DNA of 28,122 nucleotides from Spirogloea muscicola (Eukaryota > Streptophyta > Zygnematophyceae > Spirogloeales > Spirogloeaceae). The notes under the pieces were generated by a model. It was not told the DNA's origin. It worked only from the letters and a program-made list of their open reading frames with translations, and ran no database searches. Made by a program: the position numbers and the translations under genes. Each line of letters starts with the position of its first letter. The stretch's first letter is position 1. Below are positions 935-26,047 of this stretch, piece after piece. Where the stretch lies: NCBI GenBank assembly GCA_009602725.1, contig WELB01000182.1, positions 128,667 through 156,788 of the forward strand, given 5' to 3'.

Positions 935-16059
<15,125 letters not shown>

Positions 16060-16669
16060 NNNNNNNNNNNNNNNNNNNNNNNNNNNNNNNNNNNNNNNNN
16101 NNNNNNNNNNNNNNNNNNNNNNNNNNNNNNNNNNNNNNNNNNNNNNNNNNNNNNNNNNNNNNNNNNNNNNNNNNNNNNNNNNNNNNNNNNNNNNNNNNNN
16201 NNNNNNNNNNNNNNNNNNNNNNNNNNNNNNNNNNNNNNNNNNNNNNNNNNNNNNNNNNNNNNNNNNNNNNNNNNNNNNNNNNNNNNNNNNNNNNNNNNNN
16301 NNNNNNNNNNNNNNNNNNNNNNNNNNNNNNNNNNNNNNNNNNNNNNNNNNNNNNNNNNNNNNNNNNNNNNNNNNNNNNNNNNNNNNNNNNNNNNNNNNNN
16401 NNNNNNNNNNNNNNNNNNNNNNNNNNNNNNNNNNNNNNNNNNNNNNNNNNNNNNNNNNNNNNNNNNNNNNNNNNNNNNNNNNNNNNNNNNNNNNNNNNNN
16501 NNNNNNNNNNNNNNNNNNNNNNNNNNNNNNNNNNNNNNNNNNNNNNNNNNNNNNNNNNNNNNNNNNNNNNNNNNNNNNNNNNNNNNNNNNNNNNNNNNNN
16601 NNNNNNNNNNNNNNNNNNNNNNNNNNNNNNNNNNNNNNNNNNNNNNNNNNNNNNNNNNNNNNNNNNNNN
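16060..16669. other. Assembly gap (610 Ns) over a divergent promoter region
   Basis: The bases are unknown. The gap separates the 5' end of UTP10 (minus) from the 5' end of the J-domain gene (plus). It must therefore contain both start codons and very likely both promoters and 5' untranslated regions. The true length may differ from 610. Confidence 0.98.
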
Positions 16670-19600
16670 TGCGCTGGCCATCCTGGCCTGGCGCTGCGCC
16701 GGCCGCGGCGCCCGCTCCCTGGCCGCCGCCGGCACCGCCGCCGTCCTCCTCCTCCTCTGGACCGCCGCCGCCGCCGTCGCCCTGCTCGCCGGCTGGCCCC
16801 TCTTCTCCGCGGTCGCGGTACGACCCCCTGGCCCTGTCGGAAGCCCCTGGCTCCGCTGCAGCTGCAATGCCCTGGCGCGTCGATATGACCATCTGGCCCT
16901 GTCGGAAGGTCCTGGCTCTGCTGCAGCTCCATAGCCCAGGCGGTCACCGCACCCGCAAAGTCAACGGACTCCCTGTTCCTGTTGGGACCCCCTGCTCCCT
17001 CCCCTGCTTCTGCTGCAAAGCCCTGGCAGTCACCATTTCTGCAAAGTCAGCGAGGACTTCCTGGTCCTGTTGGGACCCCTGCTCCCCATTTCCCCCCTCC
17101 CCTGGCTCTGCTGCAAAGCCCTGGCGGTCGCCGTTCCTGCAAAGTCAACGGGGCCGCTGCTGACTTCGCCTGCCCCCTCTCGGCTGCAGGCACTGGCAAC
17201 TGGTGCCGCGGTATTCGTCAGCCCCATTGTGGCAATTGTCGGTTTTGCGGGATTCTCAACTATCGTCGTGGCCCTCTACGGCAGCATCTGGATGTCGGCT
17301 GCCGCTGCCGGCTGTGGAGGTCAGTAATGTGAAGTGCTAATGACAAATACTTGAGTAGATGGGCTTCCAGGTAATGCTATGATGCCCCAGAAGGCGCCAG
17401 CACGTTATATTACCTGCATAGACAGATACTTCAATGGTCTCGGTGATTAGCTACGTATCTCCTTTGAGGGAGTGGCTTTTTAGCAATGCCGTGTCCTTGA
17501 TTGGCGCCAACATGCAGAAGTTGCCCCGCTTAGACAGACACTGTATTCCAGTTATCAGCTCATTGAGTGTAGTCATTGTTTCTGATGGATATACCTCAAT
17601 AAGATCACCGGTCAGCGGACTGGCTGGCTGGCTACTTGACTGACAGGCTTTAGCACGATTGAGATAGTTGGTAGTATAGTAGCTCAACTTCGGACTGAGA
17701 TTCAGCTAGCTAGCCAGACTAGCAGCTAGCTAGACCAGTCAAATCATTTTCGAGCAATCAATGCAGCACTTTAATTTCTTTGCAATGTCTTGGCAGGCGC
17801 GCTGTATGCGGCAGGGCAGTTGAAGCCGGCGGTCTGCTTCCTGCTGCTCTACTCGATGTACTCGGCATGGAGCCGCGGCGGCGTGCGCATCGTGGCGCTC
17901 TGCGCTGTGCTCGCGTTTGTCACCAGCGACATCCTCCTGTACGTCATGGCCGACGAGCTCAGCAAGGACGGCGGCGCCGCCCGGCGGCGCAGCGCATGGA
18001 GCACCGGCAGCAGCCGGACGTACCCAGTTCATGCGAGGGCCGCCGCCGCCGCCGCCGCCGCCGCCTCCGCACCAGCCGGCGAGGCAGCCGGCTACGGCCA
18101 AGACCCAACTGGGAAGGGCGATGCCACGCAGGACTCTGAGTCGTGGCAAAGATCCGCAAGCTCAGAGGACACGTCTACGTCGTACACCTCACACGCCGCT
18201 GACAGCGGCAGCAGCTCGTGGGCCAGGCGCCGGCCCCCTGCCGCCGCTTCCGCCAACGGTCATGGTGCCGCCGGAAGCAGCAGCTCGTTCAGTAAGTACG
18301 GTCAGTGGTTCTGGAGGACCAACTCTTTTTCCGGCTTCCGGCGTGCCACGGCAGGCGAGCACCGCCACGGGTTCAGCCGGTCCAACTCGGTGCCGTCGTC
18401 GGCCTCGGAGGACGTGCCAGACGCAGCGCCGGCGGATAGCTGCTCGCCTGAGGAGGAGATCGCGCGGCTCCTGACGTGCCATGACCACTATGCGGTGCTG
18501 GGCTTCAGCAAGTATGGCGAGCCCGACAGTCTGGACCTCAAGCGCGAGTACCGCCGCAAAGTACGCTGTGCTTTTCCAATCCCAAGTCAACATAATCTGC
18601 CTTCACTTGTGTTTGTACCATTGGTGGAGCCAGGCTGGGTCTAGGCTAGTGTTGTGATTAGTATGTCGTGAATGCCGCACCCCTGGTACACGGGCTGCAA
18701 TTGGCAAGGTAAGTTGGAGCATCTACTCATTTCATTGCTGTCTCTGGGTTGACTTTGCGGGCCGTCTGGATGCGCAACCGCATAGAATTGTAAGCCATTG
18801 GCTTTATCTGTAAGCAGTTATGAAGGTCTCATAGGTGATCTTTATGAGCACTTGGGTTCTGACGGCCATTGTGCCATGGTGGGGGTCTCCGAAGCAAGCT
18901 ATGAGCAGCCGCTTGGATGCAAGCCCAAGCTCTGAGCCGCATCTGGTGGTTTCGAGCCCTGAAGCAGTGGTGCGAGTCGAGCCGTGTGCATTTACAGGCC
19001 ATGCTCGTGCATCCGGATAAGAATCAGGGCAACACGGATGCGGAGGAGGCCTTCAAGCGCCTGCAGAATGCGTTCGAGGTGAGACGCCTACGCATTGCCC
19101 TTGTTGATCATGGTTTGAGGGCTCAGGGCTTCTGGGGTGAGCTCCTTGGCCTGGTCCAGCACCCGCTTGACAAGGATATGGGGCTCGGACCAACTACATG
19201 CACGGCACGTCGCGGGACTTGTGGCCAGGTCCTCTCTGATGAGGCTAAGAGGGATGAGTACGACGAGCTGGAGAAGCAGAAGGAGTTCGTCGAGCGCTGG
19301 AAAAGGAGGAATGGCCACAGCCAGGCAAGCTCGCAATATCTTCAGGTGCCCTTGCTAAGTGACACAGTGGCTACAAGTGCATTGACAGCTGCCAGAATGT
19401 TGACAATCATGTCCATGAAGAGACGGTAGAAATGAAGGTAGGAGCTAGGAGCATGGTTGCACTTCACATGAGAGCAACAAGCTTGCACTGACAAGTTCAA
19501 GTAGCACGTGCTTTGAAATCAATCACTATTGCAGCTGCACTGTTGTGGTCCCTCCAAGTCTCTGTGTTTGCGGGCTGACAGCAGGCCTTATATATCTTGT

Positions 19601-21442: not shown

Positions 21443-21793
21443 TGGGACTGAGCAGACTTGCCATAGGCTTGCCTTGCTTTGGAAAGCGGACTGCTGTCAA
21501 GCTCCATACAAGCTCAATATGCAAGTACCGCTGAGTATAACACCACGGCTATCGTCTGCAACTGAGTAAATGAGCTCCTCTAAGGCGCCTGGTTACAAAT
21601 TGTTTGCAAACTTCAGGTGACATCAAAGGCGTGCCTCCTTACAGTCCAAAAAATTGTATATAGGCGACATCCTTGAGGGCATTGGCCACCCAGAAGATAA
21701 TCTTAGGTGGGTAAGCCTCGCATGTCTAAAATACAGTGGTGCGACCACCGAAGAGAGTTCTAACAACCCATTAATGGTGGTAAGGCAAGCATG
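21443..21793. other. Convergent 3' intergenic region
   Basis: This short stretch lies between the stop codon of the plus-strand J-domain gene (21442) and that of the minus-strand membrane-protein gene (21794), so it carries both 3' untranslated regions. A TTACA at 21593-21597 reads TGTAA on the minus strand, the polyadenylation signal used by many green algae, about 200 bases after the minus-strand stop. No coding frame is convincing. Confidence 0.5.
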
Positions 21794-22778
21794 TCATTGC
21801 AACTCCTGACCACTGCCGCTACCGCGAGTGCCGACCTCGGCAGGCAACAAGCCGCGGAGGAGGGGCGGGGGCTCAACAAAGTCACCAGCCAGGAGCACGG
21901 CCGCGAGCCACACAGGTAGGATGACGGCTATGACCCACAGGAACGTGTTGCTGCCTGAGCTCGCGCACATTCAGCCGCAATTGATTGGAGATTGGTCAGC
22001 ATATTAGCGAGGTTTTGCATACAGCACGACGCCTGAACCCTACGCCACATGCTTCACAACTACTGGATGAAGCTGATCAAATCTTACTCATATTCACCTT
22101 AGACCGGAAACATAGCACCCCCTCAAGTCGGGCTGCCTAATAAGAAGTGGAGACTGACGCTAGACATCACCAAAGTGCCGCCTTCGAACCCCAAGATAGA
22201 TGATCAAAATAGAAAATATAACATTATCACGGCCACAGCCAGTCCCTGGCCCCTGCCACGGGCATTTGGGCCAATGCACGTACCCTCTGCGCCCTCGTCG
22301 GGCTGCGAGCGCTCCACCAGCCACTCGCCGGCGCGCCGCAGCTGGCGGAGGACTGCGCCGTCGCCCTCTCGGCGCCGACGCTCCTCGTCGGGCTCCGCGA
22401 ATGCCTCGCGCTCAAGCTCGTCCAGCAGCGACCAAGGCGTACCATCTGGCTTCCTGCAGACGCAAATGGGTCACATAGGGCAACCACCCACAAGCCGTCA
22501 GTTACTGCGCTGGAAAAGTGGCGGTTCATTTCCTGCTGCTCTTGACAGCCAGGATTTGGACTTGAATTCAGACTCGAGCGCCAGCACCAGGCCCTCCTTG
22601 GTGGTCATTGCCGTGACGGTCTCTCAAACGACTTCTGCTGCTGGTTTGGCATCCTCCTTTGTAGGCACAATCACAGCACAGGAGCCCAACACTTTGCCCA
22701 GCTCCACAGACGCGCCAGGCCGGAGCTCTAGACCGCCAGATACCTCTCATGCTGCTCGGAGACATCGCCGAAGCCATC
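21794..22778 (-). CDS. Unrecognised protein with C-terminal transmembrane helix (5' part unresolved)
   Basis: Assembled from four minus-strand exons with matching phases and good splice borders: 22734-22778 (DGFGDVSEQHERYLA), 22562-22620 (TVTAMTTKEGLVLALESEF), 22284-22453 (KPDGTPWSLLDELEREAF, then a charged segment ending LRRAGEWLVERSQPDEG) and 21794-21954 (SNTFLWVIAVILPVWLAAVL, a membrane helix, then a short Pro-rich tail and TGA at 21794-21796). The visible part is about 145 residues: a soluble, acidic, helical N-terminal part and a single C-terminal anchor. I do not recognise the family with confidence. The pattern AGEWLV...plus anchor vaguely recalls uncharacterised plant plastid membrane proteins, which is only a memory-based hint. 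An upstream exon may lie near 23000-23160, beyond a telomere-like array. Alternatively the first exon could start at an ATG at 22775-22777 in another frame (MASAMSPSSMRG, transit-peptide-like), but that frame does not join the next exon in phase. Confidence 0.6.
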
Positions 22779-22799
22779 CTGTTGTGTTGGCATCGGGGC

Positions 22800-22910
22800 T
22801 AAAACCCTTCAGGGCTAAACCCTAAACCCCTAAAAGTGAACCCTAAGACCCCTAACTTAAACTCTACCTTAACCATAAAGCCTAACCCCGGAACCCTAAA
22901 TTCATGGTCT
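22800..22910. repeat. Second interstitial telomere-like repeat (CCCTAAA type)
   Basis: Degenerate units such as GGGCTAAACCCTAAACCCC, GAACCCTAAGACCCC and GGAACCCTAAATTC occupy this stretch. It lies just upstream, on the minus coding strand, of the 3' splice site at 22779, so it would sit within an intron or the 5' region of the minus-strand gene. Genes and a 5S gene continue beyond it, so it is internal. Confidence 0.8.
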
Positions 22911-22998
22911 GGACTTGGGCCATAGACAATGGTCTCCCAATGTGAGCTTTCTGAGTACTTTGAGGTAAGCTTGTCAATTAGCTTAAATGACTTCATAA

Positions 22999-23165
22999 TG
23001 AATTAGGCTGAGGGCAAGCGCCTACATCCGCACCACCGGCGGCGTCGGCGACGGGGGCTTGCGGGGGCCGCCGGCGGCGGCGGGCTTGTCCAGGACCTCG
23101 GCCTCTAGCTGCGCCAGCGAGCGGCCGCTGTGCCAGTCGTCGCCGTTGGGCCCCTCATCTGCCGC
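22999..23165 (-). other. Possible upstream exon of the minus-strand membrane-protein gene
   Basis: One minus-strand frame reads DEGPNGDDWHSGRSLAQLE and continues into a Pro/Ala-rich segment, PTPPVVRM, then TAG. A GTAGGC donor overlaps that stop, so this may be an exon rather than a C-terminus. The acidic, non-repetitive part looks protein-like, but I could not join it in phase to the exon at 22778. It passes 5' into GC-triplet repeats with an N at 23228, so the start cannot be set. Confidence 0.3.
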
Positions 23166-23320
23166 CGCCGCCGCCGCCAGAGAACGCCGCCGTCGTAGCC
23201 GCGTCGGCAGCGACGGCGGCGGCGGCGNTCGCCGACGGCGAAAGCCGTGCCGCGGAAGTTTCCGGCGGCGTCAGCGGCGGCGGCGGCAGCGGCGGCGGCG
23301 GCGGCGGCAATGGCAACGGA
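23160..23320. repeat. GC-rich triplet-repeat zone with ambiguous base
   Basis: Long GCC/GGC-type triplet runs (23160-23178, 23214-23227, 23270-23310) flank a single N at 23228. Both strands stay open over this stretch because of the repeat composition, so open frames here are not evidence for genes. The N may hide a length error. Confidence 0.7.
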
Positions 23321-23439
23321 ATGACAATGGCAATCAGTGTGAATTTTGCAGCCACAATTAAATTGCTTTTGTGACGGTGGAAAGGGGTCCTCAATTCATC
23401 TGCTATCGGTGTTAGTGTGTACTGGCTAAAATCGGCAAA

Positions 23440-23461
23440 CCCTTCTTTCTCGGAAGAAGGG
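23440..23461. other. Perfect inverted repeat downstream of the 5S gene
   Basis: CCCTTCTT and AAGAAGGG form an 8-bp stem around a 6-base loop (TCTCGG). It lies just past the oligo-T stop of the 5S gene on the minus strand. It may be a transcript 3' hairpin or simply a chance palindrome. Confidence 0.45.
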
Positions 23462-23465
23462 TCAC

Positions 23466-23469
23466 AAAA
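23466..23469 (-). terminator. RNA polymerase III oligo-T terminator of the 5S gene
   Basis: AAAA on the plus strand is TTTT on the minus strand, immediately after the 3' end of the 5S rRNA homology. This is the expected position of a simple Pol III stop signal. Confidence 0.6.
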
Positions 23470-23603
23470 GTGGATACGACACGAGGATTTCCCGGGAGGT
23501 CACCCATCCCAGTACTATTCTCGCCCAAAGGAGCTTAACTTCGGAGTTTAACTTCGGAGCTCTGATGGGATCCGGTGTAGTGGACCTGGTATGATCGTAT
23601 CAC
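23470..23603 (-). rRNA. 5S rRNA gene with internal 13-nt tandem duplication
   Basis: The minus strand carries the hallmark 5S segments in order: GATACGATCATACC at the 5' end, CACCGGATCCCATCAGA, CTCCGAAGTTAA, GGGCGAGAATAGTACT, GGGATGGGTGACC, and a 3' end GTCGTATCC that pairs with the 5' end. A normal plant/algal 5S is about 120 nt. Here CTCCGAAGTTAA is present twice in tandem (plus-strand units CTTAACTTCGGAG and TTTAACTTCGGAG, about 23532-23557), making the gene about 133 nt. The extra copy falls in the helix III/loop C region, upstream of most of the internal promoter. A TTTT stop follows. The duplication would disturb the conserved fold, so this copy is likely a pseudogene or variant, although the ends and the rest of the gene are well preserved. 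Confidence 0.88.
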
Positions 23604-24442
23604 GTCAGCTGCGTGACGCGAGTAACACCATGGTTTGATAAAAATCAACAATTCCATGGCAGCGTGGTAATGCATTGTACTGACACGTTGCGCTGCGGAA
23701 ACGCCTCGCCACCTTCTTCGTCGAGAGGGGGCTCGGCTGCTTAGCAGAGGTTACTGAGTGATTCGTAGCTGCTTTGTTTCTCTGTGTGCTTGTTTCCCTT
23801 AGCGCTTCGCCTGGCCCCCTTCTCGTACTCTGTTCATTCTTTTCTGGGCTGGCTTTTCCAGCCCCTATCCTGAATGGGCCAGCACTTTCTGTCTGGGGGC
23901 GGGGGCGCCTCACGCATTTCTGTGCACCAATGTTCCTGCTGGGTCAATTCAGGTCAACGACACTAGGTAGCTCTTACCTGAGTGGACTTTGCATGAGCCC
24001 GCCCCCCCCCGAACCCCGGTGGGCAACTTCCATGCGGGCCGCCCCGATCCGTGGCCTAACATGAATGGACGAATGGCGAAATACCCCCACATGGTGACTC
24101 TTTCTGTGGGGCTCCAAAACTGTCCGATCCCCATCACAGCCCTTCGCCGCCCCCCCCGCCTCGGCCCCGCCTCGGGCTTGCTTGCCTCCGTGTCCCCCAT
24201 AGCCACGACCTCGGCGCCGCCGCCGCCGCCTCCGCCGCCCCCCCGGTTGCCGCCGCCGCCGCCGCCGCCGCCGCAGTGCCCTCGCCGCGTGTGCGCCCCG
24301 CTGATATTGTCGTGAGCATCGGAGCTCGGCCAGTGGCAGTCGCTGAGCGAGGAGCTCCAGCTCCGGGGGCAGCGGCGGCGGCGGCGGCGTCGGCGTCGAC
24401 GGCTGCGCAGCTCAGACGACATCCAGAAGGAGGGCCATCGCC
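23604..24442. other. Intergenic region between 5S gene and the 24443 gene, with 5' UTR
   Basis: No convincing gene was seen. The open frames here follow C-rich and triplet-rich composition. The last part should contain the promoter and 5' untranslated region of the plus-strand gene at 24443. Short runs of eight or more C occur near 24002-24010. Confidence 0.5.
24210..24274. repeat. (GCC)n-rich tract upstream of the 24443 gene
   Basis: Interrupted GCC/CCG triplets lie about 170-230 bases before the start codon at 24443, probably in the 5' untranslated region or promoter. They create long spurious Pro, Gly or Ala frames. Confidence 0.7.
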
Positions 24443-26047
24443 ATGGAGGCCGCTCGCCGAGACGCCGCTGGCGCCGAGCAGCTCATCGCCCGGGGCGTGC
24501 AGGCCTGCCCCTTCCTGCGCAATATTGCGGAGCCGACGGCGTTCACCTTCAATAGCTTCGGAGCTGCGGCGTGGACGGCCATGGACGGCGTCCGGGGCCT
24601 GGGCAAGGGCCTGGCGCAGCAGCGGCGCGGGCCTATCTTCGAGGACGGCCCGAGCTTCGACGCCGCCTTCCGCCTCTTCCATGGCCGCGACGGCATCGTG
24701 CCACTGACAGGCTCGCGGCGCGTTGCTAATGGCGCTCCAATGGAGCCCTTGCCGGCGACGGCGGCGCCGCTTCGAGCGCATTCCATAGCCACTGCCTGCC
24801 CGGCGGCTGCCATCAGCCTGTCAGCTTTCGGTCCCGCCGGCCCCTTCAGCTTCGACTCGTTCATGGACAGCCAGAGGTCCCGTCCGCCAGCTAACGGCAG
24901 CGATGGCAACGGCGATTTTGTGGACAAGCGCAGCAAGGCCGAGCCACAGCCCGAGCCTGATGCCAAGGTCAGTCCTGATGTCACCCCATCTGAGGCTCCT
25001 ATGAACATTGTACAAAAGTCATAGCTGTGCATAAGTGGCCATTGACGCTGTATTGTAGCACTTTCTTTGTGGACGTCTGCAAGTCAGCTGCAGATGAAGC
25101 ACTGCTTTAGTGTGCTCCGTACTGCCTGATAGGTCCTTGCTTGTCACCATTGGGCTGACTGTTATCAGCCCTTGCTAGGCTTATCAGCTATTGTTAGAGT
25201 ATAACCAGGAAATATTCGCCTGACTGGTAGGCCATGGCTAGCATAAGGTCCTGAGAGTAGGGGAAATGTATCTGTTGATCTCTGCTGGAAGGTTATGGGG
25301 TATTTGAGGATATTTCTTGGCAGCAATACCTGCAGGATTTCAGATCTTTAATGCTGTGCTCTTATACTCTGTGTCTGTGATATGCAGCCATCAGGCAAGC
25401 TGCACGAGGCCCTTGGTGAGGACTGGCTGGCAAGCGGCAACTGCCCGCTGGCGCGGTCGTACCGCGCAGCGGCCAACATCCTGCCGCTGGTGGCGGGCAT
25501 GCTGAAGCCACCGCCTGGAGTGAAGTACAAATGCCCGCCAGCCATTGTCGCGGCGCGGGCTGCTCTTGCACGCACGACGGCAGTGCGGTCATTGCGACCA
25601 CAGCCCCTGCCAAAGCGCATCCTTGCCATTGGCATGCTGGGGTTTGCCATCAACGTGCCACTGGGCATGATACGGGAGCACACTACAAAGTTCTCGCCAC
25701 AGTGGTTCCTCGCTGTGCATGCCGCGGTGCCACTCGTGGTTATGCTCCGCAAGGCCGTGCTGCTGCCCAAGCGTGCCATGGCCTTCACTATTGCGTCGGC
25801 GATCCTTGGTCAAGCCATTGGCGCCCGTCTTGAGCGGCTACGATTGCACACGAGTGTTGAAGCAGATGGTACGATGAGCGGCGCAAGGACGGGACAGGCT
25901 GCAGCAGCAAGGAGAGATAAGAAGCCCTTGCTTGCCTCTGCGCCCATATGTGGAACAAGTCCGCATCGCTGCTGGCGGCGCCGCTGCCACAACCAATGCT
26001 TTGTGCTGCTCAGGGATAAGGGCTTGCATGCTCCTTACACCACTTGA
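24443..26047 (+). CDS. Uncharacterised plant/algal-type membrane protein (two exons)
   Basis: Exon 1 is 24443-24967 and exon 2 is 25388-26047 (stop TGA), joined in phase 0 by a GT...AG intron of 420 bases (donor GTCAGT, acceptor ATATGCAG); 394 residues. The start ATG has a strong context (GCCATCGCCATGG). The N-terminal part contains a notable CPFLRNIAEPTAFTF, then GPIFEDGPSFDAAFRLFHG and DGIVPL. The second exon has about three hydrophobic segments: ILAIGMLGFAINVPLGMI, WFLAVHAAVPLVVML and AMAFTIASAILGQAIGA. From memory this arrangement resembles an uncharacterised family of plant transmembrane proteins, but I cannot assign a reaction. The last 60 residues or so (Ala/Arg-rich, then Cys/Arg-rich) look less conserved; a further splice donor near 25869 could replace them. 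Confidence 0.82.

Follow-up and report, generated by a model that had tools for sequence, protein, structure and literature searches.

A 5S rRNA gene copy with a 13-nt internal tandem duplication, probably a degenerate member of a dispersed nuclear 5S family

The 5S gene copy and its surroundings

The window, the whole 28,122-nt stretch of DNA analysed here (G000:C182:128667-156788, from a 153-Mb assembly of 471 contigs), carries a 5S rRNA gene copy on the reverse strand at 23471..23602, delimited with the full RF00001 model and by alignment with other copies. An Rfam search of the window matched 23602..23471 (-) to the complete model (1-120) at 78.8 bits (E 2.1e-15), exceeding the family gathering score of 38 over the whole of RF00001; 5S rRNA is the sole RNA family in the window at gathering score, with one match. 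Between the model ends the copy measures 132 nt, compared with 119 nt for the standard gene of this genome, which scores 100.4 bits. Directly upstream lies CG (23603..23604, -), the G at 23603 being the probable +1, and a terminator-like TTTT (23466..23469, -) begins 2 nt beyond position 119. The complete model match and the Pol III-type TTTT at 23469-23466 bear out a preliminary description of this DNA, which had noted a 5S gene with matching ends and a Pol III stop; its 134-base interval fits a gene running from the probable +1 G (23603) to the position-120 C (23470).

The 13-nt internal tandem duplication noted in that description was confirmed at 23535-23560, where two 13-nt units adjoin: unit 1, GCTCCGAAGTTAA (23548..23560, -), and unit 2, ACTCCGAAGTTAA (23535..23547, -), the latter identical to standard 5S positions 43-55. 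Both units contain the 12-mer CTCCGAAGTTAA without mismatch, and the thirteenth base, the first of each unit, is G in unit 1 and A in unit 2; this difference at one of 13 bases suggests that enough time has probably passed since the duplication for its units to diverge. The array was likewise called by Tandem Repeats Finder, at 23530-23561 with period 13, and in the standard gene AA bounds the 13-nt unit on both sides. Short tandem duplications are not in themselves rare: with a gap of up to 1 allowed and words built from two letters or fewer omitted, exact 12-nt tandems occur twice in the window, at the 5S duplication and at 14577. Since five other loci have the same gene with the unit once, the duplication is not a chance resemblance.

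Outside the repeat, the window copy differs from the standard gene by three substitutions only, two of which are of C-to-T or G-to-A type, and it matches standard positions 64-101 exactly. Specifically, G19T (23584, -) breaks the helix II pair 19-59, and C61T in standard numbering (23529, -) converts the helix II G-C pair 17-61 to G-U; both thus fall in helix II and neither compensates for the other. The third, G102A in standard numbering (23488, -), affects a position that is unpaired in the model.

Elsewhere in the window, an open frame at 1976-2740 (-) matches BP28CT (PF08146, 1.9e-27) and is presumably of HEATR1/UTP10 type, and another at 18917-19426 (+) matches DnaJ (PF00226, 6.4e-10); the other eight of the ten window frames scanned gave nothing above cut-off, and ARAGORN, run with bacterial settings, reported no tRNA gene anywhere in the window. 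At 15939-16669, 121 A residues run directly into an N stretch starting at 16060, which is likely an assembly artefact. Degenerate plant-type telomere-like CCCTAAA repeats occur inside the contig at 22800-22900 and 15324-15387. The stretch 23780-23900 belongs to an abundant, dispersed repeat that contains an internal GGGCTGG/CCAGCCC hairpin and has at least 44 matches (40 of 1470 candidates scored), most at 91-95% identity.

Other 5S copies in the assembly

The assembly contains at least 33 RF00001 matches (47 of 4114 candidates scored); querying its DNA with the window copy located 38 nuclear-type 5S places. We compared 32 stretches covering all 33 matches, with ~1 kb of flank unless the contig ended sooner, and also fetched six partial places seen in the DNA search alone. 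Twenty-five end-to-end nuclear copies were retained (L009-L031, which number 23, with L033 and L035), omitting L032 and L036, which look organellar; L034 and L037-L040, with diverged or truncated ends in spite of a model match over 1-120; and the six partial places. The 5S matches on C457 and C262 look organellar, that on C457 being plastid-like, and were excluded from the nuclear set.

We take as the standard gene the 119-nt 5S sequence found in identical form in C53, C83, C118, C150 and C158, and with eleven further copies these make 16 of the 25 end-to-end nuclear copies indel-free at exactly 119 nt. The other nine, window copy included, carry indels and have lengths of 108, 116, 117 (two), 120, 124 (two), 132 (window) and 137 nt. 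Among the longer ones, C71 and C377 repeat TAAGC (+5) and have identical nearby flanks, C66 has gained 23 nt and C16 1 nt; among the shortened ones, C2 has an 11-nt deletion and C12, C151 and C40 have deletions of 2-3 nt, with truncated pieces elsewhere. The +5, +13 and +23 changes are different events in the same stretch, at approximately positions 43-75, and copies with duplications or deletions of their own give the picture of a dispersed 5S family undergoing routine decay. The proposed test that all other copies be of normal length thus held for the 16 of 25 copies at 119 nt, and failed for the other indel copies.

The duplication itself is confined to the window. A pattern search of the whole 153-Mb assembly, allowing up to three mismatches, found the duplication at one place, in the window only, and its reversed control nowhere; the 38-mer of standard positions 64-101, with the same tolerance, gave 24 matches. 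The suggestion in the preliminary description that other 5S copies might share the duplication is therefore excluded within this assembly. An intact parent gene, as a pseudogene should have, is present as five identical indel-free copies, and the lesion is absent from the intact copies. Among the literature matches listed (titles and abstract starts of open-licence papers), no paper describes this duplication, which is weak evidence.

The 5S copies are mostly scattered singletons with no array seen in the assembly, from which a true 5S array may possibly be missing; if true arrays are absent, the arrangement would, to our knowledge, be uncommon for the green lineage. Truncated 5S pieces accompany several longer copies downstream: positions 1-67 at a distance of 63 nt in C118 (L011), positions 55-119 at 35 nt in C82 (L019), and two weaker pieces just downstream in C40 (L031). 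These pieces hint at former tandem pairs. Among the matches listed, several 5S pairs share flanks further out, and the C53 and C82 flanks are 87% alike over 914 nt, ending ~55 nt upstream of the gene. The diverged 5S-like copies L037 (C35) and L040 (C14), which have altered ends, share downstream flanks at 87% over 1009 nt; beyond the 5S part, the queried C35/C14 flank matches those two places only. In L049 (C220:155137-157214; 1001-1086 and 1353-1378) a 5S sequence is split after approximately position 26 by 266 nt containing two copies of the abundant repeat found near window 23780-23900. In L052 (C281:16861-18920; 961-1576), 5S positions 2-61 at 1004-1063 (+) overlap the weakly aligned end of an opposite-strand large-subunit rRNA match (1576..961), a possible chimeric fragment.

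Predicted folding and flanking signals

To compare predicted folds, the Rfam pairing was transferred to the standard gene and pair probabilities were computed with ViennaRNA. The standard gene has mean pair probabilities of 0.84 for helix I, 0.40 for helix II, 0.84 for helix III and 0.58 for helices IV/V. In the window copy, helices I (0.84) and IV/V (0.57) are as in the standard gene, and helices II and III stand at 0.00 and 0.00, with helix III placed on either repeat unit; 8 of 8 standard helix III pairs are possible in both registers. Enforcing the 5S pairs costs 5.8 kcal/mol relative to the free minimum for the standard gene versus 17.8 or 17.0 kcal/mol for the window copy, and when a structure need only be compatible with those pairs, the best lies 5.7 above the free minimum for the former and 15.4 or 14.9 above it for the latter. 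The predicted structure of the window copy mixes insert and core, unlike an expansion segment, in which an intact core would be accompanied by a self-folding insert.

Eleven other indel-free copies, including a second perfect one, were folded for comparison: ten have helix III at 0.46 or above, with helix II weak (0.11-0.26) in three of those ten, and the enforced cost is 5.8-8.0 in nine of ten indel-free variants. The exception is C28, an indel-free copy with six substitutions that also loses helices II and III (0.00 and 0.01) and has an enforced cost of 15.7. The +5 copy in C71 has helix III at 0.57, helix II at 0.10 and an enforced cost of 9.9. The window copy thus has the worst fold among the copies tested, with C28 close, and in silico neither favours the 5S fold when folded alone. 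Folding in isolation ignores ribosomal proteins, and such predictions may serve as a guide to function rather than as proof.

We take the duplication to lie just before the internal promoter region and to overlap its beginning, with the promoter largely kept. Pol III measures its start from the internal promoter, which, taken at its usual place, is 13 nt further from the start in the window copy. The CG start and TTTT are retained, so that transcription of the window copy may still occur. In an upstream tally of 20 copies, which includes both L024 and L025, the base directly before the gene is G in 19 and the one before it C in 15; T4 or longer occurs within 30 nt in 15 copies of a set of 23, which omits L035 as well as L025, whose flanks equal those of L024. 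Taken together, the dispersed copies have a peak in A+T content at -30..-26 (0.76, versus 0.37-0.58 in thirteen 5-nt stretches from -95 to -31). TATA or ATAT occurs at -36..-21, a stretch chosen after seeing the alignment, in 10 of 23 copies, whereas 10,000 random draws from these flanks gave 0.58 such copies on average and never more than 5. By this strict test the element is missing at -36..-21 from 13 of the 23, which include the window copy and four of the five perfect ones. Searching the upstream sequences for 8- and 10-mer motifs yielded AT-rich words only, none clearly exceeding shuffles. Plant 5S genes have a TATA-like motif at -28..-23, with which the AT peak and TATA element of the dispersed copies agree, insofar as the available part of that account describes it (PMC8928438). 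The upstream sequences point to a family of genuine gene loci in dispersed positions, and do not decide whether the window copy is active.

With regard to insertion signatures, the 25 nt flanking each side of 32 loci were compared for strings of at least 6 nt in common, which would mark a target-site duplication; 30 loci, the window copy included, gave none, the remaining two being C53 (6 nt) and C16 (10 nt). Among the matches listed, the window-copy flanks recur only as the abundant repeat (~130-290 nt upstream) and as a 66-nt GC-rich match.

Origin of the window copy and comparison with known systems

We consider it highly probable that the window locus is a single degenerate 5S copy, a pseudogene of a dispersed nuclear 5S family in which decay has begun. 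The first alternative of the preliminary description, a single degenerate copy, is accordingly the one supported, with the duplication at one place and most copies free of indels. A replication slippage or microhomology event may have duplicated the 13 nt of positions 43-55, after which three further substitutions would have accumulated. The longer distance from start to internal promoter, together with the misfold, would presumably mean that no functional 5S RNA comes from this locus, intact copies elsewhere supplying the ribosome. Some features count against decay, namely the retained CG and TTTT, the exact match over positions 64-101, the small number of substitutions (three) outside the repeat, and the fact that G102A breaks no model pair. 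Decayed 5S copies with indels have been described in many organisms, and this one matters little alone; it is a clean example of how a striking internal duplication in a near-perfect structural-RNA gene can be resolved through a count of its sister copies. Of mild interest is the setting, in which the copies are mostly scattered singletons and many have a TATA-like element close to where plant 5S genes have theirs.

The same retained start, terminator and exact 64-101 stretch could instead be read as marks of an expressed and functional 5S rRNA variant, enlarged at loop C/helix III and present in a minority of ribosomes. The insert lies where bacterial and archaeal expansion segments occur, according to the available portion of a survey (PMC7812874), and either repeat unit could in principle supply the helix III pairing. 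Such a variant is nevertheless very improbable, given that one copy alone in the assembly carries the duplication, that this internally duplicated insert is predicted to cause misfolding of the core, and that helix II is further damaged by the non-compensating G19T and C61T. We give a slightly smaller chance still to the specific expectation that the locus is transcribed into a minor ~133-nt 5S rRNA with a 13-nt loop C/helix III expansion and two helix III registers. Were it true, this would be an expressed eukaryotic 5S rRNA with an internal expansion, defining a small class of structurally distinct ribosomes.

That the 13 nt were inserted by an error of assembly or consensus is likewise very unlikely: a single N at 23228 and the long N run from 16060 indicate that the consensus is imperfect, but the units differ at one base, three other substitutions separate the copy from the standard gene, and the flanks adjoining the gene are its own, making a mix-up of different 5S loci unlikely. 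Hardly credible is a 5S-derived mobile element, either a Cassandra-type LTR element or a 5S-derived SINE, in place of a gene copy. The dispersal of 5S-like copies, the flanks shared by some pairs over hundreds of bases, and the diverged C35/C14 sequences with their common downstream flank would suit such an element, whereas the window has one 5S match, running end to end, and the direct repeats of at least 18 nt in 21500-25600 comprise nothing beyond runs of GC-rich triplets and a single 18-nt pair (83%). In Cassandra the 5S part sits in the middle of paired LTRs, as stated in the accessible part of one report (PMC10853983); Cassandra or another 5S-carrying element was rejected on the single 5S match and the lack of a paired-LTR-like repeat in 21500-25600, and a retroposed copy with target-site duplication on the lack of a common flanking string of 6 nt or more in the 25 nt to each side of the window copy.

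As a degenerate copy, the window locus has counterparts in known systems, compared here through the parts of the cited sources that were available. Pistia stratiotes likewise has 5S length variants beside normal copies, which were judged non-functional because their predicted fold departs from the standard; those variants are shortened (114, 110, 106 and 42 bp) and lie in arrays, whereas the window copy is lengthened by duplication and dispersed (PMC8928438). Neurospora likewise has scattered 5S units without typical tandems and with many decayed copies, a pattern that fits birth-and-death evolution (PMC10462631), although the host here is apparently of the green lineage, judging by the plastid-like 5S on C457 and the plant-type CCCTAAA repeats. 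Bacterial and archaeal expansion segments resemble the window copy in being 5S insertions, in a region where many of them lie (PMC7812874); that of Halococcus morrhuae measures 108 nt (PMC7530397). As far as these excerpts describe them, known expansion segments leave the core intact and fold largely alone, whereas the insert in the window copy is predicted to misfold the core, and the expansion-segment survey discarded sequences with internal duplication (PMC7812874).
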